From Thermoleophilum album (GTDB lineage Bacteria; Actinomycetota; Thermoleophilia; Solirubrobacterales; Thermoleophilaceae): a stretch of DNA of 64,000 nucleotides. This document shows, in pieces, positions 38,016-47,463 of this stretch (the stretch's first letter is position 1; every line of letters starts with the position of its first letter). The position numbers and the translations under genes were made by a program. The notes under the pieces were generated by a model, which ran no database searches, had not been told where the DNA came from, and was given only the letters and a program-made list of their open reading frames with translations. Location: contig NZ_FNWJ01000002.1 in NCBI RefSeq assembly GCF_900108055.1, positions 382,382-446,381 of the forward strand, given 5' to 3'.

Positions 38016-39341
38016 ATGCAGGATCTTCGCGACGATGCGCGCTTCGGTCAGGGACTCCGTAATCCGAGGGCGCGCCAGCGGGCGATCTGCATAGCCGCAG
38101 CACCGCGCGAGCCGGACTTCTCGGAGCTACGGGAGCTTTTGCGCACCGCCGGGGTTGCGGTTGTCGGCGAGCTCTGGCAGCGGCGTGAGCGACCCGATCC
38201 TGACCGCTACTTGGGGCGCGGGAAGCTCGCAGAGCTAGCCGAGCTGGCCGCCGCCGTCGACGCGAACGTAATCGCCTGCGACGACGAGTTGCTCCCGCGC
38301 CAAGAGCGGAACATCGAGGCTGAGCTGAAGCTGCCGGTGGTCGACCGCACCGCGATCATCCTCGACATCTTCGCGCGGCACGCGCGCAGCGCCGAGGGCA
38401 AGCTACAGGTCGAGCTTGCCCAGCTCGAATACAACCTCGCGCGGATGCGCGGCTTGTGGACTCACCTGGAGCGTCTGGGCGGCGGCATCGGTACGCGTGG
38501 TCCCGGCGAAAGCCAGATCGAGACTGATCGCCGTCTCGCTCGCGACCGCATCGCCGAAATCCGTCGCAAGCTCGCGCACACGCGACGCGTCCGCCAGACG
38601 ATGCGGGCCCAGCGGGAACGGGCGGCGCTGCCTTCGGTCGCGCTTGCCGGTTACACGAACGCTGGCAAGTCGACGTTGATGAACGCGCTGACCGGCGCCG
38701 GTGTGAGCGTGCGCTCGCGTCTTTTCCACACGCTCGATCCGACCACGCGGGCCTTCCGCATCGAGGGTCGCACCTACCTACTGACCGACACCGTCGGCTT
38801 CATTCGCAAGCTTCCGCACCAGCTAGTTGAAGCGTTCGCGGCGACCCTCGAAGAGACCGCGCAGGCGGACCTGATTCTGCATGTGCAGGACGCCTCGGTG
38901 GCGGAAGACGAGCTGGGCGCGATGCTCGAAGCGGTCGACCGCACGCTGCGCGAGATCCACGCTGACCAGCGGCCGCGTTTGCTCGTTTTCAACAAGGTCG
39001 ACCGGCTCGACGCCGCCGAGCGGCGGGCCTTGCAGCGGCGTTGGCCGCGCGCAGTGCAAGTGTCGGCCGCCACCGGCGAAGGGCTCGAGCTGCTTCGCCG
39101 CCGCATCGATGCCGAGTTGACGAAGGACCTGCGAGCCGTCGACCTCTTCGTGCCCTATACGGAGGGAGCCAGGCTCGCCGAGCTTTACGAGGTGGCCGGT
39201 CGTGTCCAGCAACAGCACACGGCCGAGGGAGTGCTCGTCCACGCACGCCTTCCGGAGCGCTTGCTGCCACGCTACGAACGCTTCCGCTGCGACCGCCGCG
39301 CCGGTTTGGCGCCCCGGCGGGCCGTAGGGTTCGCGGTGTGA
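38016..39341 (+). CDS. hflX: Ribosome-associated GTPase HflX
   Basis: 441 residues. The N-terminal HflX domain ends in LGGGIGTRGPGESQIETDRR; a coiled linker follows (RIAEIRRKLAHTRRVRQTMR); the G domain has G1 GYTNAGKST at 212-220, TDTVGFIRKLPHQLVEAF and NKVDRL. HflX splits stalled or hibernating 70S ribosomes. The last codons overlap dut. The upstream DUF429-like gene ends 61 nt earlier. Confidence 0.94.
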   Translation: MQDLRDDARFGQGLRNPRARQRAICIAAAPREPDFSELRELLRTAGVAVVGELWQRRERPDPDRYLGRGKLAELAELAAAVDANVIACDDELLPRQERNIEAELKLPVVDRTAIILDIFARHARSAEGKLQVELAQLEYNLARMRGLWTHLERLGGGIGTRGPGESQIETDRRLARDRIAEIRRKLAHTRRVRQTMRAQRERAALPSVALAGYTNAGKSTLMNALTGAGVSVRSRLFHTLDPTTRAFRIEGRTYLLTDTVGFIRKLPHQLVEAFAATLEETAQADLILHVQDASVAEDELGAMLEAVDRTLREIHADQRPRLLVFNKVDRLDAAERRALQRRWPRAVQVSAATGEGLELLRRRIDAELTKDLRAVDLFVPYTEGARLAELYEVAGRVQQQHTAEGVLVHARLPERLLPRYERFRCDRRAGLAPRRAVGFAV

Positions 39342-39826
39342 GCGCTTACCGCGCGATCGAGGGGCCGAGCTACCGGCTGCGCTGCCGGCGCCTGCGCCCC
39401 GAAGCGACGTTGCCGCAGCGTGCCCACGCGAGCGACGCCGGTCTCGACCTCGCGGCCGCCGAGACGGTGACGATCGAGCCTGGCGAACGTGCGGTGATCG
39501 GTTGCGGCATCGCGATCGAGCTGCCCGCAGGGATCGCCGGGCTCGTGGTGCCGCGCTCGGGACTTGCTCTCCACCACGGCGTGACGCTGGTGAACGCCCC
39601 CGGCCTGATCGACCCTGGATACCGCGGCGAGCTGCGGGTGGTGCTCCTCAACACCGATCGCCGGCGGTCGTTCGTGGTGCGCCCTGGGGATCGCATCGCT
39701 CAGCTGTTGTTGGTCCCGTTCGTCGCTGCCGAGCCGCTGGAAGTCGAGGAGCTCGACGCGGGCGAGCGGGGCGAGCGCGGGTTCGGATCGACCGGTGTCC
39801 GCCCCCGCGCACGCACACTGGCTTAG
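39338..39826 (+). CDS. dut: Deoxyuridine 5'-triphosphate nucleotidohydrolase
   Basis: Hydrolyses dUTP to dUMP; 162 residues. All five trimeric-dUTPase motifs are visible: SDAGLDLAAAE, PRSGLALHHGVTLVN, PGLIDPGYRGELRVVLLN, RPGDRIAQLLLVP and RGERGFGSTG. The GTG start (MSAYRAIEGPSYRLRCRRLR) overlaps the hflX stop region by 4 nt. Confidence 0.93.
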   Translation: MSAYRAIEGPSYRLRCRRLRPEATLPQRAHASDAGLDLAAAETVTIEPGERAVIGCGIAIELPAGIAGLVVPRSGLALHHGVTLVNAPGLIDPGYRGELRVVLLNTDRRRSFVVRPGDRIAQLLLVPFVAAEPLEVEELDAGERGERGFGSTGVRPRARTLA

Positions 39827-39891
39827 TCGGCGCGCACCCGGGCGCCCGCCGCGCGTCTTCAGGCGGTAGCTGGCCGGCCGATATCGAGGAC

Positions 39892-41631
39892 GTGGAGGTC
39901 CCAAGCCCCGCCACGCGCGGCCGGCTGCCGCGCGGTCTCTACCCACCCTCAGCAGCTGCGAACCGACCGCGCCGCCTCGGGGAAGCCGTGGTGGCGCTCG
40001 GTTTGGCCGACGAGGCGACGGTTCGTAAATGCGTAGAGCGCGCACAAGCGGAGCGGCGACCGCTCGGGGCGGTGCTGCTCGAGGAGGGGGTGGTCGACGA
40101 GCGTGGTCTCGCCCGGGCGCTCGCCGAACGCAACCGCTTGCCGTACGTCGACTTCAACGAGTTCGACGTCGACTGGGGGGCGGCGAACCTCATCGACGCC
40201 GCTCACGCACGACGGATGCGGGCCGTGCCGATCGCCTTCTGGGATGAAGGGACGCTGTTGGTCGCGGTCGCCGATCCGGCCAATCTGCCGGCGCTCGACG
40301 AGATCGAGCTGACCACCGGTCTGCGGACCAAGCGGGCGATCGCCGCCGCTGGCGAGATCGACGCTTTGCTCGCGCAGCTTTCGAGCGCGGAGAGCGCAGT
40401 CGCGGAGATTGAGAGCGATGAAAGCAGGGATCGCGAAGAGCTGGGCGAGGTCATCGAACTGCGCGACTCGGCGGCCGAGGCGCCGGTGGTGCGGCTGGTC
40501 AACTCCGTGATCACGGACGCGGTCGAGCGAGGAGCGTCCGACGTGCACTTCGAGCCGAGCGGCGGCGACATGCGCGTGCGCCTGCGCATCGATGGGGTCG
40601 TGCGCGACTCCACGACGATCCCGCGAGCGCTTGTGCCGGGTGTGATCTCGCGCTTGAAGATCATGGCGGAACTCGATATCTCCGAACGCCGCCTTCCGCA
40701 AGACGGTCGTATCAGCTTGTCGGTCGGCGGGCGGCAGGTCGACCTGCGCGTCGCCACCTTGCCGGTCGCCCGTGGGGAGGCCGTCGTGCTGCGTGTGCTG
40801 GATCAGCGACGAGCGCTCGTCGAGCTCGATCAGTTGGGGCTAGCCGAGGAAGACCGCGAGAGCCTCGAACGGGCTCTGCGACTGGGACACGGGGCAATCC
40901 TCGCAACCGGGCCGACCGGGTCGGGGAAGACAACCACTCTCTATGCAGCACTCAACTTGCTCAACCAACCGGAGCGGACGATTGTCACGATCGAAGACCC
41001 GGTCGAGTACGAGATCGACGGCATCAAGCAGGTTCCGGTGAACCTCAAGGCCGGCCTCACCTTCGCGCGCGGACTGCGCGCGATTGTGCGCGCGGATCCC
41101 GATGTTGTGATGGTTGGCGAGATTCGCGACCGTGAGACCGCGCACATCGCGATCGAGGCGGCTCTCACCGGCCACTTGGTGCTGTCGACTCTCCACGCCA
41201 ACGATGCTGCGACCGCGGCCGCGCGCTTGATCGAGATGGGGATCGAACCGTTCTTGGTCGCCTCGAGTCTGGAGTGCGTGGTCGCCCAGCGTCTGGTGCG
41301 CCGGCTCTGCGACTGCAAGCAGCCGCTGCGCCTTACGCGCAAGGTGTTGCGGGAAAACGGCTTTGGGCAGGTCGGCCCGATCGACGCCTACGGTCCGGGG
41401 AGTTGTGTTCGCTGCGGCGGGACGGGCTACCGCGGCCGCGTCGGCCTCTTCGAGCTCCTGCGCTTCGACGATGATTTGCGCGCGCTGGTGCTCGAACGAG
41501 CATCCGCCGACCGTCTGCGCCGCGCCGGCCGCGCGCGCGGGATGCGCACGCTCCGCGACGATGCGCTCGCGAAGGTGCGCGACGGAACGACCTCGCTGGA
41601 AGAAGCGTTGCGCGCCCTCGGCAGCGCCTAG
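39892..41631 (+). CDS. Type II secretion / type IV pilus assembly ATPase (GspE/PilB)
   Basis: 580 residues. N-terminal T2SSE_N domain (RRLGEAVVALGLADEATVRK; LPYVDFNEFDVDW), then the ATPase: SDVHFEPSGGDMRVRLRIDG, Walker A GPTGSGKTT, the Asp box, Walker B DPDVVMVGEIRDRETA, His box TGHLVLSTLHANDA, and a tetracysteine zinc motif (LCDCKQ ... SCVRCGGTGY). Powers pilus or pseudopilus assembly. No other pilus gene is in the window. GTG 39892 chosen because it starts the conserved N-terminus just after dut; the first ~25 residues are uncertain. Confidence 0.9.
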   Translation: MEVPSPATRGRLPRGLYPPSAAANRPRRLGEAVVALGLADEATVRKCVERAQAERRPLGAVLLEEGVVDERGLARALAERNRLPYVDFNEFDVDWGAANLIDAAHARRMRAVPIAFWDEGTLLVAVADPANLPALDEIELTTGLRTKRAIAAAGEIDALLAQLSSAESAVAEIESDESRDREELGEVIELRDSAAEAPVVRLVNSVITDAVERGASDVHFEPSGGDMRVRLRIDGVVRDSTTIPRALVPGVISRLKIMAELDISERRLPQDGRISLSVGGRQVDLRVATLPVARGEAVVLRVLDQRRALVELDQLGLAEEDRESLERALRLGHGAILATGPTGSGKTTTLYAALNLLNQPERTIVTIEDPVEYEIDGIKQVPVNLKAGLTFARGLRAIVRADPDVVMVGEIRDRETAHIAIEAALTGHLVLSTLHANDAATAAARLIEMGIEPFLVASSLECVVAQRLVRRLCDCKQPLRLTRKVLRENGFGQVGPIDAYGPGSCVRCGGTGYRGRVGLFELLRFDDDLRALVLERASADRLRRAGRARGMRTLRDDALAKVRDGTTSLEEALRALGSA

Positions 41632-41658: not shown

Positions 41659-42423
41659 TCACGCAAGATCGTCGTAAACGGCCGTGTCGAGCAACGTCGG
41701 GTCGATGCCGGCAGCGCGGATCGCGGATTCGTGCGCGGCTTGTTCGAGGCCATCGTCGAGTGGCTCAAGCGGCCTCCCAAGCGCCCGCTCGATGAGCCAA
41801 TCGGCGAGCCAGACGTTCTTCGGTAGCAGCGGTCCGTGGAGATAGGTGCCGATAACGTTGCCGCGCACCACGCCCTCAGTGCGGTCACGACCGTTGTTGC
41901 CGTGTCCACGCAGGACTCTCCCAAGCGGCTGCTCGTCGGGGTCGAGGTAGGTACGACCGCCGTGATTCTCAAAGCCGGCTAGCAGTCGCAGGCGGCCGCC
42001 GAGCTCGGTTTCGATCACGCAGTTGCCGATCAGGCGCGGGCCTGGCTCGCGCACTGTTTCGAGACCGACGAGCCCGAGTCCCGGCAGCTGCTCGTCACCG
42101 AGCCGATAGCTGCGGCCGAGCAGCTGATAACCGCCGCAAACAGCGAGGATCCCGCAGCCCCGTTCGACCGCCGCGAAGATCGCGTCGCGCTTGCGGGTCA
42201 CCAGGTCCCGTGCGCAAAGTGCCTGATCGCGGTCTTGTCCGCCGCCGATGTAGATGAGGTCAAAGCGTTCCGGCTGCAGACGGTCGTCGAACGACACGCG
42301 CTCTACCGCAAAGCCAATGTCGCGCCATTGGCAGCGCCGCTCGAGCACCAGCAAGTTGCCGCGGTCCGCATAGATGTTCATGAGCTCCGGGTAGAGAGCG
42401 CAGACTCGAAATGTCTCGCTCAC
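41659..42423 (-). CDS. gatD: Lipid II isoglutaminyl synthase glutaminase subunit GatD
   Basis: 254 residues, a CobB/CobQ-type class I glutamine amidotransferase: YPELMNIYADRGNLLVLERR, nucleophile Cys96 in ILAVCGGYQLLG, and a histidine in YLHGPLLPKNVWLADWLIER. Supplies ammonia to MurT for amidating D-Glu in lipid II. GTG start overlapping the methyltransferase stop (GTGA). murT is not adjacent but one gene upstream in the same unit. Confidence 0.92.
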   Translation of the reverse strand: MSETFRVCALYPELMNIYADRGNLLVLERRCQWRDIGFAVERVSFDDRLQPERFDLIYIGGGQDRDQALCARDLVTRKRDAIFAAVERGCGILAVCGGYQLLGRSYRLGDEQLPGLGLVGLETVREPGPRLIGNCVIETELGGRLRLLAGFENHGGRTYLDPDEQPLGRVLRGHGNNGRDRTEGVVRGNVIGTYLHGPLLPKNVWLADWLIERALGRPLEPLDDGLEQAAHESAIRAAGIDPTLLDTAVYDDLA

Positions 42424-43256
42424 GCCCCTGCTCCTTTGGCGGCCCGCTGACCGTCGCGCGACCTCGCCTTGCGCATCACCACGATCGTGGCCGGCGCGCT
42501 TTCCGCGTCTGCGGGCAGAGCGATCCTGCGCGCCGGTTGTAGTCCGAGTTCGCGGCCAAGCCGCTCCAACTGGTGCGCCTCAAGTGTGCTCAGCCGCTCG
42601 CGTAAGTAACGGCGCCAACCACGTTGGCAGGCGTCGGTGCGCTCTACGCGTTGCTCGCGCTCGATGACAAGCTCGCGACCACGTCGGCCAACCGCAACCA
42701 CGCGCGTCGCGACCCGCCAACCGTCAACTTCCATCGATCTCCACGGCAAAGACAGCTCGTGCCAGGAGTTTTGCGCGATCCCGGCCGCACGGAGGTCGCT
42801 GTCGGTGCAAACCGCCAGCGCCAACAAGCCACCCCCGCACAAGTGGCGAACCGCCGCAGCGAGCAGCGGTCGCAGCCGCGCACCGACCAGCTGCACCAGC
42901 TGTTGGGGGGCGATCACCAGGGCAAATTGGAGCTTCGCGGGATAGGCGCGGTAATCGCTTGCGTCGGCGCGCACAACGGCGATCGGCAGGCCGCGCGCGC
43001 GTGCCGCGAGCTCGGCAGCTAGCGACCGATCCTGCTCGAACGCCCACACCTTCCGACCGCTGGCGCGCGCCAGCGTCAGGGTCACGCGGCCGGTGCCGGC
43101 ACCGAGCTCGGCGAGCGGGCCGGCCGGTGCCTGCCTCGCCAGCGCCAGCCACTGATCGATGTCGACTCGGTAGGAGCCGCAAGCGAGGTCGTGGAGCGCG
43201 ACCGTGGCGGCCTGTGGGGGGGCGCAAGTGAGCGGCGTCCCCGCGCCTGCGCTCAC
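42420..43256 (-). CDS. Class I SAM-dependent methyltransferase between murT and gatD
   Basis: 278 residues. The SAM motif I is LAELGAGTGRVTLTLARAS, followed by VWAFEQDRSLAAELAARARG (motif II acidic residue), ADASDYRAYPAKLQFALVIA and HLCGGGLLALAV. The C-terminal ~110 residues are basic (QRGWRRYLRERLSTLEAHQL). The GTG start overlaps the murT stop by 4 nt, and its stop overlaps the gatD start by 4 nt, so it is part of a coupled murT-X-gatD unit. Substrate unknown; a cell-wall precursor is a guess from context. Confidence 0.82.
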   Translation of the reverse strand: MSAGAGTPLTCAPPQAATVALHDLACGSYRVDIDQWLALARQAPAGPLAELGAGTGRVTLTLARASGRKVWAFEQDRSLAAELAARARGLPIAVVRADASDYRAYPAKLQFALVIAPQQLVQLVGARLRPLLAAAVRHLCGGGLLALAVCTDSDLRAAGIAQNSWHELSLPWRSMEVDGWRVATRVVAVGRRGRELVIEREQRVERTDACQRGWRRYLRERLSTLEAHQLERLGRELGLQPARRIALPADAESAPATIVVMRKARSRDGQRAAKGAGA

Positions 43257-44782
43257 CGATCTGCCCAGTGCTTGGCCGCTCCCTTGCGCGCCAGCCAGGT
43301 GCGGAGCTCGAGCAGCGCCGTGTAGGTCGGCAACGCGTAGAGCCGGCCGTCGGTGTGGCGGAGGGCCTGCTCCAGCGACTTCGCAACTTCCCGGTTCACG
43401 GCAAGCGGTGCTTCGACCCCCGCGTACTTGAGGCGCAGCGCCATCTCGGGGGCGCGAGTGCCACTGCACGACGCAAAGCGCACGCGACCGCGCAGCAACT
43501 CAAACTCGGCGTCCCAAATCCAGGAGACGTCGCGACCATCGGCAATTCCGTCGTTGAGCGCGATCCACAGGCACAGCTGCTGATCCTCGAGGACCAGGGT
43601 GCGCAGCACCTCGTTCGCGCCAACGGGATTCTTGATCAACATCAGCACGAGCTCGCGTCCCTCGAGCGTCACCACCTCGACGCGCCCGAAGGCGGCTTGC
43701 ACGTCGGCCAGCGCCGTCGCGGCGTCGCGCAGACCGAACCCAAGAGCGATCGCAGCGGCGCACGCGGCGAGCGCGTTGTAAGCGTTGTAGACGCCGGGCA
43801 GCGGCAGCTCGATGCGCGCGCGCTGCTCGTTGTGCTCGATCTCGACGAGGGAACCACGCATCCCGCGCAGCTCGACCCGCCGGGCGGCGACCGTCGGCTC
43901 GGGACGCCCATGCCCGCACGCCGGGCAGCAGTAGCGCCCAAGATGACCGAGCCACGAAACCGTGTACTCGTACGGCGCGCCACAGCGCCGGCAGTGCGTG
44001 GCATCGGCGGCGTGGTCGCGATGGGGGAGGGCACGTGCATCGTCCTCGAGCCCGAAGTAGAGGGCAGCTTGCGGCGTCGGTGCGACGTCGGCAACTAGCG
44101 GGTCGTCGGCACACAGCACCAGTTTGGTGCCCCACTCGACCAGCTCGTGGGCGAGTGCGGCCCACTCGTCGGCGAGCCGTTCCAGTTCGCCGTAGCGATC
44201 GAGCTGATCGCGGAAGAGATTCGCGAGCACCACGATGCGTGGGCGCAGCGCTCTGGCGACCGCACCGAGCCACGCTTCGTCGACCTCGAACAAGCCGACT
44301 TGGCCATCCCCCGGCCGAGCGTCGAGGAGAGCGGTTGCGACCCCCCACGCGAGGTTCGAGCCCGCTTGGTTGTGAACCACGGGGCGTCCTTGCGCGCGCA
44401 GGATCTGGGCGATCATCGCGGTCGTCGTGGTCTTGCCGTTGGTCGCCGAGACCAGTACGGCGCCGCCATCGAGGCGTCGACCGAGCGCTTCGAGGGCGTC
44501 CGGACGTAGCGCGAGCAGCACCCGCCCCGGCAGCGTCGTGCCGCCGCCGCGGGCGATCGCTCGGCTGGCTCGCCGGGCGATGCGCGCGCACGCTGTCGCG
44601 ACCGCGAGGGGGACGCCGAGGCGGCGGCGCGGCCATGGTCGTCCAGGACGACGCTGTGGCGGGCGGCTGGCGTTGGCGGGTGCGGAGGCACGCGCGGGGG
44701 AGGGGCGTTCCCCCTGCCCTTCACGTGTGGCTGCGCCCGCAGCGCCTGCGCGCGCACTTCTGCGCTCGGTCTCTAGGTCCAT
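43253..44782 (-). CDS. murT: Lipid II isoglutaminyl synthase subunit MurT
   Basis: 509 residues. Mur-ligase ATP site SATNGKTTTTAMIAQIL, QAGSNLAWGVATALLDARPG, EVDEAWLGAVARALRPRIVV, NLFRDQLDRYGE, and an inserted zinc ribbon (CRRCGAPYEYTVSWLGHLGR ... CCPACGHG). Then the C-terminal DUF1727 part (IKNPVGANEVLR). Amidates lipid II D-glutamate with GatD. ATG 44782 is 13 nt after the diacylglycerol-kinase-like gene; the first ~60 residues are low-complexity. Confidence 0.93.
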   Translation of the reverse strand: MDLETERRSARAGAAGAATREGQGERPSPARASAPANASRPPQRRPGRPWPRRRLGVPLAVATACARIARRASRAIARGGGTTLPGRVLLALRPDALEALGRRLDGGAVLVSATNGKTTTTAMIAQILRAQGRPVVHNQAGSNLAWGVATALLDARPGDGQVGLFEVDEAWLGAVARALRPRIVVLANLFRDQLDRYGELERLADEWAALAHELVEWGTKLVLCADDPLVADVAPTPQAALYFGLEDDARALPHRDHAADATHCRRCGAPYEYTVSWLGHLGRYCCPACGHGRPEPTVAARRVELRGMRGSLVEIEHNEQRARIELPLPGVYNAYNALAACAAAIALGFGLRDAATALADVQAAFGRVEVVTLEGRELVLMLIKNPVGANEVLRTLVLEDQQLCLWIALNDGIADGRDVSWIWDAEFELLRGRVRFASCSGTRAPEMALRLKYAGVEAPLAVNREVAKSLEQALRHTDGRLYALPTYTALLELRTWLARKGAAKHWADR

Positions 44783-44795
44783 CGTTGTGGCCAGC

Positions 44796-45755
44796 TCACC
44801 GGCCAGGCGTCCGAACCACCGATCCTGTCCGCTCGCTCTCGGCGGGCACAAGCACGGTGGCTTCGGCACGATCGGCAGCGACCACGACTCTGAGTGAGCC
44901 CCTCTCGACGGTAACGGTGCACGGTGATCGAGACACCGGATCGCCGTCGGCGTAGACGTCGAATGAGCGGTCGCTAATCACCGTCACCGTTCGGCCGCGG
45001 TCGGTGATGACCTCGGGCAGGGCGAGGTGGGTGCCAGCGAAGACACGGGGCAAGTTGCGGAGCAGGCGCAGGCGTGACGCGTGCGCCGTTGCCACGACGT
45101 CGAGGTAACCGTCGAACAGCGAGGCGTGTGGCGCAAGCCACATACCGCCGCCGTAGCACCCGGAGTTGGCAACCGCGACTGCGTAGCCGTGTAGCTCGAA
45201 CTCGCGACCGTCGACCACGACCTCGAACCGCGCCGGACGCCACTGGGCGAGCGCGCGAAGCGCGCCCAGCGCGTATACGAGCTGGCCGCGCACCACCCGC
45301 ACCTTGTTGGCGATCTCGTTGGCCAGGGAGTCGAAGCCGAGACTTGCGATCCCCAAAAACGGCTTGCCGTCGACCCTGCCGAGGTCCACGGTGCGTTCGC
45401 GGCCCTCCAGAGCGATCGCGATCGCCGCCGCCGGCTCACGGGGGATGCCGAGTACCCGCGCGAAGTCGTTCCCGCGTCCGGCCGGACAGATCGCGAGCGG
45501 CGTGCCGCTTCCCGCCAGCTCCCCCGCAACAAGCCGCAACAGGCCGTCGCCGCCGACGGCCACTACGCGCAGCTGGCGACCGGCGAGAGCAGCCGCCTGC
45601 CGGCGCACGTCGTCGGGGTCGTCAGCGACGATCGCGCGGTGGGCGACACCCCGACGCGCAAGCTCCGCCACGCAGCAGTCGAGCGCCAGCTTCGCTCGTC
45701 CTCCGCCCGCCGCTGGATTGGCGAGCAGCACGATCTCAGCGTGCCCTCGACTCAT
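44796..45755 (-). CDS. Diacylglycerol kinase-like lipid kinase, divergent active site
   Basis: 319 residues. VLLANPAAGGGRAKLALDCC and VVAVGGDGLLRLVAGELAGS mark the catalytic-domain family; CPAGRGNDFARVLGIPREPA and GIASLGFDSLANEIANKVRV follow, then a C-terminal beta domain. The usual GGDGT-x-N/x-E is GGDGLLRLVAGE (residues 68-79), losing the threonine and the typical following Asn/Glu, so activity or substrate may differ. Overlaps the amidotransferase gene as ATGA. Confidence 0.85.
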   Translation of the reverse strand: MSRGHAEIVLLANPAAGGGRAKLALDCCVAELARRGVAHRAIVADDPDDVRRQAAALAGRQLRVVAVGGDGLLRLVAGELAGSGTPLAICPAGRGNDFARVLGIPREPAAAIAIALEGRERTVDLGRVDGKPFLGIASLGFDSLANEIANKVRVVRGQLVYALGALRALAQWRPARFEVVVDGREFELHGYAVAVANSGCYGGGMWLAPHASLFDGYLDVVATAHASRLRLLRNLPRVFAGTHLALPEVITDRGRTVTVISDRSFDVYADGDPVSRSPCTVTVERGSLRVVVAADRAEATVLVPAESERTGSVVRTPGR

Positions 45756-46567
45756 CCTGCGGTAGCCGCCGCGAGACCCTGGGCACGCTGCGCGGCGGCG
45801 ACGCCCCGAGCTTCACCGGAAAGCGCGGGGTCGGGCTCTAGGCGCTCGATTCGGGCGCGCTCCACGAGGGCGTCACCGAGTACCCGCGCGACCGCCGGCT
45901 CGGTGGGATCGCTGGGGTCGGCGATCAGCAGAACGTCCTGCTGAACGGAGCGCCAATGCTCCTCGGTGAGACGCTCAGATGCCAGAAGGAGCCGTTCACC
46001 GTCCGACCACCAGTGCAGTTCGAAGACGCCGAGCCGGTAGGCGTACAGGCGCTCGCCGTCGCAGAGTAGGAAGTTGAGCGCGGAGAACGCTGTTTCGTCG
46101 ATCAGCGGCGCCAACGCGCGCTGCAGCGAGCGAACGGGTTGTGCTGCGTCGAAGTGCGCGAGCACGCGCACGAAGAGGCGTTCCGAGTCGGTGTCGCCGC
46201 GCACCTCGGGGGCATCCTTCGGCAGGCGCGGATAGCGCGCGAGCGTGCCGTTGTGACTGAAGGTGAACACACCGAACGCGAAAGGGTGCGTGTTCTCGAG
46301 GCGCAGGCCGCCGACGGTGGCGCGCCGCACGTGCGCGTTGAAGATCTGACCACGCAGCCCCGCGAGAGCTCGCAAACCCTCCTTCGCGGACCCCGCCTGG
46401 GGAAACCTGACGAGTCCCGGGTCGGATCCGTCGGGGCGCCGGTAGACCGCGATGCCGAAGCCGGAGTCGTGGCTTTCCGCCTGACGAATCAGGGGATTCG
46501 GCGCTTCCAGGAGCTCGTAGCCGAGCGAGATCGGCGCGCGGGCGACGGCTCCGAGCAGACGACACAT
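45752..46567 (-). CDS. Class II glutamine amidotransferase (YafJ/EgtC-like)
   Basis: 271 residues. It begins MCRLLGAVARAPISLGYELL, so Cys2 becomes the N-terminal nucleophile after Met removal. HDSGFGIAVYRRPDG, IFNAHVRRATVGGLRLENTH-type loops and FTFSHNGTLARY complete the Ntn glutaminase fold. Acceptor unknown. The hercynine-linked EgtC role would need the egt genes, which are absent here. Confidence 0.88.
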   Translation of the reverse strand: MCRLLGAVARAPISLGYELLEAPNPLIRQAESHDSGFGIAVYRRPDGSDPGLVRFPQAGSAKEGLRALAGLRGQIFNAHVRRATVGGLRLENTHPFAFGVFTFSHNGTLARYPRLPKDAPEVRGDTDSERLFVRVLAHFDAAQPVRSLQRALAPLIDETAFSALNFLLCDGERLYAYRLGVFELHWWSDGERLLLASERLTEEHWRSVQQDVLLIADPSDPTEPAVARVLGDALVERARIERLEPDPALSGEARGVAAAQRAQGLAAATAG

Positions 46568-46575
46568 CGCCGGGA

Positions 46576-46581
46576 AGTCTA
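46576..46581 (-). promoter_or_regulatory. -10-like TAGACT of a leaderless amidotransferase promoter
   Basis: On the minus strand TAGACT ends 8 nt before ATG 46567. Its TAG is the stop codon of the upstream HAD gene. Confidence 0.45.
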
Positions 46582-47463
46582 GGTGCCGTCGCTGCCCGCC
46601 CCGATCGCGCTATCCACGAGTTCCGCCAGCGACGCGGCAACCGCCACCGGTTGCGCCTCGTGACGCCATTGAGCCAGCTCGCGCTCGCTCGTCGAACCGC
46701 TCAGCACGAGCGCAGCCGGCAGCCCAGCGCGGTGCGCGCCGAGTACGTCCGCGTCCAGGCGGTCTCCGATCGCGAGTACCGAAGTGACCGGTCCTAGCCG
46801 CTCCCGGGCCATCTCGAAGATCAGCGGTTCAGGCTTCCCAACGATCGTCGCGCGCCGACCGCTGGCGTATTCGAGCAGCGCCACGAAGGCGCCGCTGCCG
46901 GGCATCGGGCCGCTCGGATGTGGATAAGTGGGATCACGCCCGGTGCCGATCATCGCTGCGCCGTTGTGGAGCGCGACGGTCGCACGCCGCAGGTGCTCGA
47001 ACGTCACCTCCGATCCGCCACCGACGATGACTACGTCGATGCGCCGCTCGTCGACGTCGGGCGCGAGCGGCGAGATCGGCACCAGTCCCGCCGCCGCTGC
47101 GTGGCGAGCGAGCTGCTCGGCGCCGACCACGAGCGCTGTACGCCAACGCTCGCCGGCTGCGAGACGGTCGCTTAGGTAGCGCTCCAGCGCAAGACCTACC
47201 GTGACGACGTCGTCGGCCGATACGCGCACCCCGGCGCGCCAGAGGCGGTGCACGTAACTTTCGACCGATCCACGCGGGTCGTTAGTCGCAAACACCACCC
47301 GCTTGCCTGCAGCCCGCAGGCGTTCTAGAGCTTCGGCAGCGCCGGCGATCGGCTGCGGCCCGATCCAAACGCAGCCGTCGAGGTCCACGATCACGCCCTC
47401 GTATTGGTGCAGCGGTGGCACCCCCGACGGACGCTCCGGAGTGCGGCGCTCTTCCTGAGCCAT
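46579..47463 (-). CDS. HAD-IIA family phosphatase (NagD-like)
   Basis: 294 residues. Motif I IVDLDGCVWIG (Asp27, Asp29), motif II FATNDPRGS, the IIA cap (about 95-190), lysine motif IVGKPEPLIFEMARERLG, and motif IV IGDRLDADVLGAHRAG. Substrate cannot be read from sequence; NagD-type enzymes act on small phosphates such as UMP, glycolate phosphate or aryl phosphates. First gene of the reverse cluster, divergent from the thioredoxin-TPR gene by 24 nt. Confidence 0.9.
   Translation of the reverse strand: MAQEERRTPERPSGVPPLHQYEGVIVDLDGCVWIGPQPIAGAAEALERLRAAGKRVVFATNDPRGSVESYVHRLWRAGVRVSADDVVTVGLALERYLSDRLAAGERWRTALVVGAEQLARHAAAAGLVPISPLAPDVDERRIDVVIVGGGSEVTFEHLRRATVALHNGAAMIGTGRDPTYPHPSGPMPGSGAFVALLEYASGRRATIVGKPEPLIFEMARERLGPVTSVLAIGDRLDADVLGAHRAGLPAALVLSGSTSERELAQWRHEAQPVAVAASLAELVDSAIGAGSDGT

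Follow-up and report, generated by a model that had tools for sequence, protein, structure and literature searches.

A methyltransferase gene lodged between murT and gatD in Solirubrobacterales is kept and lost independently of both neighbours

What is a methyltransferase gene doing in the middle of an operon whose two other genes encode the subunits of one enzyme? The question arises in a stretch of 64,000 nucleotides of the Thermoleophilum album genome (contig NZ_FNWJ01000002.1, positions 382,382 to 446,381; the window, for short), in which the gene for a class I S-adenosylmethionine (SAM)-dependent methyltransferase (MT) lies between murT and gatD, the genes for the two subunits of the lipid II isoglutaminyl synthase (Table 1). 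According to a passage of PMC3267633, murT and gatD are co-transcribed, and a passage of PMC6085368 describes the murT-gatD operon as universally present in Actinobacteria. The locus in the window has the same two flanking genes, in the same order and direction and with the same style of short overlaps, and it differs from the known operon by the third gene in between; for this gene order we found no paper in the open-licence literature. The original prediction, which described the order, the coordinates, and the GTGA sequence at both junctions correctly, took the tight coupling as a sign of stoichiometric production and of a shared process, perhaps the methylation of a lipid II precursor or of the amidotransferase itself. 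We find a real, conserved variant of the known operon and an enzyme with a predicted fold of known type. The explanation that we favour, to which we assign a probability of about 45%, is that MT is an accessory SAM-dependent enzyme lodged in the murT-gatD operon of Solirubrobacterales that acts on its own, likely on an amine.

The arrangement is beyond chance because it recurs in relatives, and this recurrence also rules out an accident of one genome; the prediction would have been refuted by an insertion confined to this genome, and that is not what the relatives show. Of 41 close genomes, 32 have a match to the MT of the window, its own genome being one of them; this is a lower bound, as divergent members are missed (G029 and G035 do carry MT). 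With a profile of 62 rows (A1) and a sample of 399 genomes of the class, 157 of the 176 genomes of the order match MT at E ≤ 1e-39, as tallied by hand from the listing; the remaining 19 comprise 16 weak matches and 3 genomes with no match. Because these 19 include genes cut at contig ends (G388 and G390, for example), we claim losses of MT only at loci that we have read. When loci are found by MT alone (30 from the search of close genomes and 17 from the class, amounting to 39 distinct genomes), gatD stands immediately behind MT in 37 of the 39. The two exceptions are G037, which is without gatD, and G010, which is split at a contig end.

Another family of the class (f5) carries a related MT at the same position. 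There, 40 of the 42 listed genomes match at E ≤ 1e-39, a figure that is partly circular since profile A1 contains f5 rows, and a profile made from 20 Solirubrobacterales proteins alone still detects the f5 MTs with E-values from 2e-21 to 1.3e-36 within the loci; L064, for which no start was available, was dropped there. All eight of the f5 loci that were fetched have MT between murT and gatD. Outside the class, neither gene was found beside the MT match in any of the 13 fetched loci, and in a sample collected from GatD the two genes are mostly directly adjacent in other Thermoleophilia, in Chloroflexota, and in others. Variants of the arrangement also occur. One genome, G178 (L131, L132), has two strong matches to the MT profile, only one of which lies between murT and gatD. 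Genus g2 has a gamma-glutamylcyclotransferase-like gene between murT and MT (L035:4692-5261, plus strand; GGACT 27.1 bits, cut-off 22.8), and a similar open frame was seen in L044, by eye only.

Natural deletions show whether MT depends on its neighbours. In three genomes, G037 and G383 of genus g25 and G100 of genus g28 (loci L128, L129, and L130; completeness 96%, 72%, and 94%, respectively), MT stands directly behind the gene for the YegS-type lipid kinase (DAGK), and murT and gatD are absent from the locus. The only matches to MurT in these genomes are weak (at best E 2.9e-7) and typical of Mur ligases in general, and no MurT_C domain was found in them as opposed to seven of seven comparison genomes. 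A query that detects GatD in 337 of the 399 class genomes gives no GatD at E ≤ 0.001 in any of the three. As far as these searches reach, an operon that is called universal in Actinobacteria in the passage of PMC6085368 is missing from all three. Their MTs look constrained, because they depart at few (2 in G037, 1 in G383, and 4 in G100) of the 38 conserved columns, those on which at least 90% of 55 rows from Solirubrobacterales agree. In addition, all four genomes of genus g8 (G009, G020, G382, G388) have murT on another contig (E ≤ 1e-158), and in the g8 loci that we read (L010, L021, L032, L034) the genes for DAGK, MT, and GatD stay together.

The reciprocal loss is also found. murT and gatD are kept and MT is gone in G001, in family f4, in G319, in G393, and in L071. 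G001 is a sister genome and the closest relative of the window; its gatD is 81% identical to that of the window, its murT and gatD are separated by 46 bases, and no MT was found anywhere in the genome. (In family f4, at loci L124, L125, and L127, the lipid kinase is missing near murT-gatD along with MT, and GATase_4 is kept.) Since each is kept after the loss, or in the case of murT the relocation, of the other, MT needs neither MurT nor GatD, and MurT-GatD do not need MT.

We also looked for residues of MurT and GatD that change where MT has been lost. Only 1 of 206 columns is changed in at least 3 of the 5 rows without MT, and the three rows that share this change are neighbours in the MurT+GatD tree. 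The control rows also served to define the conserved columns (L001, L149, and L074 are excluded from the reference rows), which biases the test toward finding changes in the rows without MT. With no convincing co-change despite this favourable bias, we rejected the candidate MT-contact residues.

How much can be read from the four-base overlaps themselves? In the window, two more of them occur nearby, between hflX and the dUTPase gene (39338-39341) and between the genes for GATase_4 and DAGK (45752-45755). In the non-redundant loci, a start that gives an overlap of four is available at 44 of 79 murT-MT junctions, at 38 of 79 MT-gatD junctions, and at 22 of 35 murT-gatD junctions without MT, as counted by a script that favours such a start wherever one exists. 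In G037, with murT gone, it is the lipid kinase gene that shares the GTGA overlap with MT, thus the overlap gives no pointer to MurT. Four-base overlaps occur about as often where murT and gatD meet directly as at the junctions with MT; they are ordinary, the normal style of these operons, and shared function should not be read from them.

With regard to the history of the insertion, a tree of 77 MT rows splits into three groups, each set off by a branch: MTs from Solirubrobacterales (27 rows; support 100/100), MTs from f5 (14 rows; 100/98), and generic relatives (36 rows; 98/89). This tree has no outgroup and is compatible with one insertion or with two; on the assumption that the root falls among the generic enzymes, the two operon groups would be sisters, for which one insertion would suffice. 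In the tree of MurT+GatD, made from 108 distinct loci with sufficiently long hits to both proteins, the Solirubrobacterales are one clade (support 100) with 59 rows that bear MT and 9 that do not. The MT label of the order needs 6 changes on this tree, at least 4 of them forced by well-supported branches, and the history of MT in the order reads as one gain and about five losses. Losses can be placed on the tree at G001, at family f4, and at the group of L133, L134, and L071.

What kind of enzyme is MT? The protein has a Pfam match to Methyltransf_25 (34 bits, cut-off 27; 4.8e-08), and an AlphaFold2 model built on a 42-row alignment has a mean pLDDT (predicted local distance difference test) of 91.7 and a pTM (predicted template modelling score) of 0.89. 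The model has the Rossmann-like fold of a class I SAM-dependent methyltransferase, and the sequence keeps the GxGxG of motif I (G52, G54, G56, and R57). The predicted fold falls in the group of CypM and TylM1, since the Rossmann core is followed by an antiparallel strand cap and the match extends over nearly the whole chain. The best solved matches (Foldseek, VIA-align) are CcbJ, CypM, YunM, CalS10, TylM1, DesVI, and KedS8, with Z 22-23.5, a root-mean-square deviation (rmsd) of 2.4-3.2 Å, and 15-21% identity; most are titled N-methyltransferases, of peptides or of aminosugars. A search of the PDB with the sequence profile finds CcbJ, CypM, TylM1, and also PCZA361.24, titled glycopeptide N-methyltransferase MtfA.

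The closest known enzymes also differ from MT. The peptide N-terminal methyltransferases CypM and YunM, together with CcbJ, resemble MT in fold over almost all of the chain (Z 22-23.3) and match the profile with E 6e-19 to 1e-21, but identity is 15-21%, and no genes for ribosomally synthesized and post-translationally modified peptides or for other natural products were recognised among the MT neighbours that we read. The aminosugar N-methyltransferases TylM1, DesVI, CalS10, and KedS8 are alike in fold (Z 22.4-23.5, rmsd 2.5-3.2 Å), but identity is 15-19%, and no nucleotide-sugar genes were recognised among the same neighbours. The best NCBIfam match is the daptide methyltransferase MpaM (NF041820; residues 27-252), an enzyme that performs N,N-dimethylation according to a passage of PMC10036551. 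We do not file MT as a daptide methyltransferase because its 48.8 bits are far below the curated cut-off of 175, and no daptide genes were recognised nearby. Scores also stay under the cut-offs of the KsgA/Erm rRNA adenine methyltransferases (RrnaAD 22.4 bits against 24, Erm 30.7 against 212, ksgA 24.1 against 171). From the predicted fold we infer methyl transfer to an amine; the acceptor of MT is likely an amine, and perhaps an envelope precursor.

The window's own copy of MT has drifted. It departs at 12 of the 38 conserved columns introduced above, where the median of the rows is 1, and the departed columns include E25 (present in 55 of 55 rows), W21, M118, D173, and R202. In a BLAST-based alignment (35 of the 55 MT rows after a coverage filter, 54 rows for GatD, and 48 for MurT), the window departs at 10 of 38 columns in MT versus 4 of 101 in GatD and 8 of 158 in MurT. 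The mean identity of the window to 13 relatives is lowered, at 68.3 vs. 80.2 for GatD, 60.4 vs. 71.4 for MurT, and 37.4 vs. 57.6 for MT. Because identity falls for all three proteins, we dropped faster overall divergence as a sign of decay and prefer the conserved-column test, which has GatD and MurT as controls. Given the drift at conserved columns and the absence of MT in the sister genome, the likeliest account is that, in this genus, MT is under relaxed constraint, is decaying, or has changed its substrate. By these comparisons, the window MT is a poor representative of a good family.

In the explanation that we favour, MT would probably share transcription and translational coupling with the murT-gatD operon and yet work as a separate enzyme. 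The GxGxGR loop would bind SAM; the antiparallel strand cap and an N-terminal helix, with the E, Y, D, and W residues that are conserved in relatives, would close over a small acceptor. The methyl group would then pass from SAM to that acceptor, for which an amine is the most likely choice. The best fit would be a precursor of the cell envelope or another small amine, present whether or not lipid II is amidated, the envelope being our guess from the position of the gene. In the lineage of the window, loss or change of function is probably under way. Some observations weigh against this explanation. MT is beside gatD in almost every genome, and it could act on the substrate of MurT-GatD. The C-methyltransferases PsmD, SeMT, and SgMT match the model at similar Z, and since they share the fold, the fold does not settle N-methylation. 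The window MT keeps the glycines of motif I and D98, and may therefore still be functional.

The first of these points leads to the possibility that MT methylates lipid II or another peptidoglycan precursor, for instance at the free amine group of diaminopimelate or on a glucosamine that has been unmasked, at the same step as MurT-GatD; the peptidoglycan would then be methylated. The constant position of MT in an amidation operon favours it, as does a fold common to enzymes that act on peptide N-termini (CypM), glycopeptides (MtfA), and aminosugars (TylM1), and parallel decorations of a precursor would allow murT-gatD to be lost and MT kept. But our searches of the open-licence literature gave no wall analysis with a methyl mark in these bacteria, and residues of MurT and GatD show no convincing co-change where MT is lost; we consider this alternative unlikely, although a serious one. 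We are just as doubtful of a substrate outside the envelope, with MT riding in an envelope operon for the sake of expression only. There is a precedent: a passage of PMC7775120 places mraW, a putative 16S rRNA methyltransferase gene, in the dcw (division and cell wall) cluster, so the substrate of a methyltransferase need not be related to the wall even when its gene lies in a wall cluster. The full independence of MT from MurT, GatD, and, in f5, DAGK agrees with such a role, and so do the weak RrnaAD and Erm matches, which however remain under their cut-offs; the fold search puts enzymes of small molecules and peptides first, not rRNA enzymes, and repeated loss would be unusual for a core rRNA modification.

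The proposals that tie MT to a protein partner fare much worse. That MT methylates MurT or GatD, or joins the amidotransferase as a third subunit in fixed stoichiometry, has on its side the tight overlaps at both junctions in the window and in many relatives. It is largely refuted, and we regard it as very improbable: MT persists with its conserved residues in three genomes without murT and gatD, murT has moved away in the four g8 genomes, and murT-gatD persist where MT has been lost. These losses on either side leave neither the stoichiometric production nor the modification of the amidotransferase that had been predicted with support. Could DAGK be the true partner, with MT a phosphatidylethanolamine N-methyltransferase that acts with the neighbouring lipid kinase? 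DAGK adjoins MT wherever murT is gone, but deletion of murT produces this adjacency automatically, no DAGK is seen near MT in the f5 loci, and DAGK is kept without MT in G001, L071, L133, and L134; we rejected the kinase as a partner. Moreover, phosphatidylethanolamine is an unlikely acceptor because phosphatidylserine decarboxylase (PF02666), the usual source of that substrate, was found in 2 of the 40 genomes tested, both of them among the 28 that bear MT, and we give the phosphatidylethanolamine proposal next to no credence.

Table 1. Coordinates of the features of the locus, in window positions.
Feature	Position	Strand	Basis and remarks
murT, Mur-ligase subunit of lipid II isoglutaminyl synthase	43253..44782	-	509 aa from ATG; GTG at 44869 possible start
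MT, class I SAM-dependent methyltransferase	42420..43256	-	278 aa; Methyltransf_25, predicted fold
gatD, glutaminase subunit of lipid II isoglutaminyl synthase	41659..42423	-	254 aa; GATase_3
GTGA overlap, murT stop TGA and MT start GTG	43253..43256	-	sequence
GTGA overlap, MT stop TGA and gatD start GTG	42420..42423	-	sequence
DAGK, YegS-type diacylglycerol/lipid kinase, conserved upstream neighbour	44796..45755	-	YegS_C 2.6e-46, DAGK_cat 3.6e-24, synteny
GATase_4, class II glutamine amidotransferase, 4-base overlap with DAGK	45752..46567	-	domain match and synteny
HAD (haloacid dehalogenase)-type hydrolase	46579..47463	-	Hydrolase_6 1.2e-21
dUTPase, convergent, conserved flank of the block	39338..39826	+	dUTPase domain 2.5e-31
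Presumed HflX-like GTPase (named from its sequence), conserved flank, 4-base overlap with dUTPase	38016..39341	+	served as tblastn query only

The minus-strand genes of Table 1 are transcribed in the order HAD hydrolase, GATase_4, DAGK, murT, MT, and gatD, and the convergent genes follow. MurT and GatD pass the Pfam cut-offs for MurT_C (102.3 bits, cut-off 25; 1.9e-29), the Mur ligase middle domain (Mur_ligase_M, 1.1e-21), and GATase_3 (127.8 bits, cut-off 27; 5.2e-37). The NCBIfam models for MurT (236-248 bits, cut-off 800) and GatD (175-176 bits, cut-offs 400-450) are the best-scoring models for the respective proteins; because they rank best and yet stay under the equivalog cut-offs, we file MurT and GatD of the window, by sequence, as homologues and not as proven equivalogs of the lipid II isoglutaminyl synthase subunits. 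Between gatD and the dUTPase gene, the window has a further gene (39502-41631) that we take, from its sequence, to encode a GspE/PilB-type ATPase. Such a gene also lies between gatD and the dUTPase gene in G001, L037, and L044, and adjoins gatD in L002 and L016; it was not seen at this site in most relatives whose locus was read.

murT and gatD are seen as forming a compact unit of two genes, and the third gene that lies between them across the order marks a methyltransferase that is perhaps linked to the envelope, and that is kept even where both genes of the amidating enzyme have been lost. The natural deletions on both sides provide ready comparisons between genomes that have MT alone, MurT-GatD alone, or all three genes. 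We think it rather improbable, but worth stating, that Solirubrobacterales have a dedicated N-methyltransferase of peptidoglycan precursors and a wall that bears a so-far undescribed methyl mark, made by a gene of the amidation operon and yet independent of amidation. If this were true, methylated muropeptides would have replaced amidated ones in lineages such as G037.

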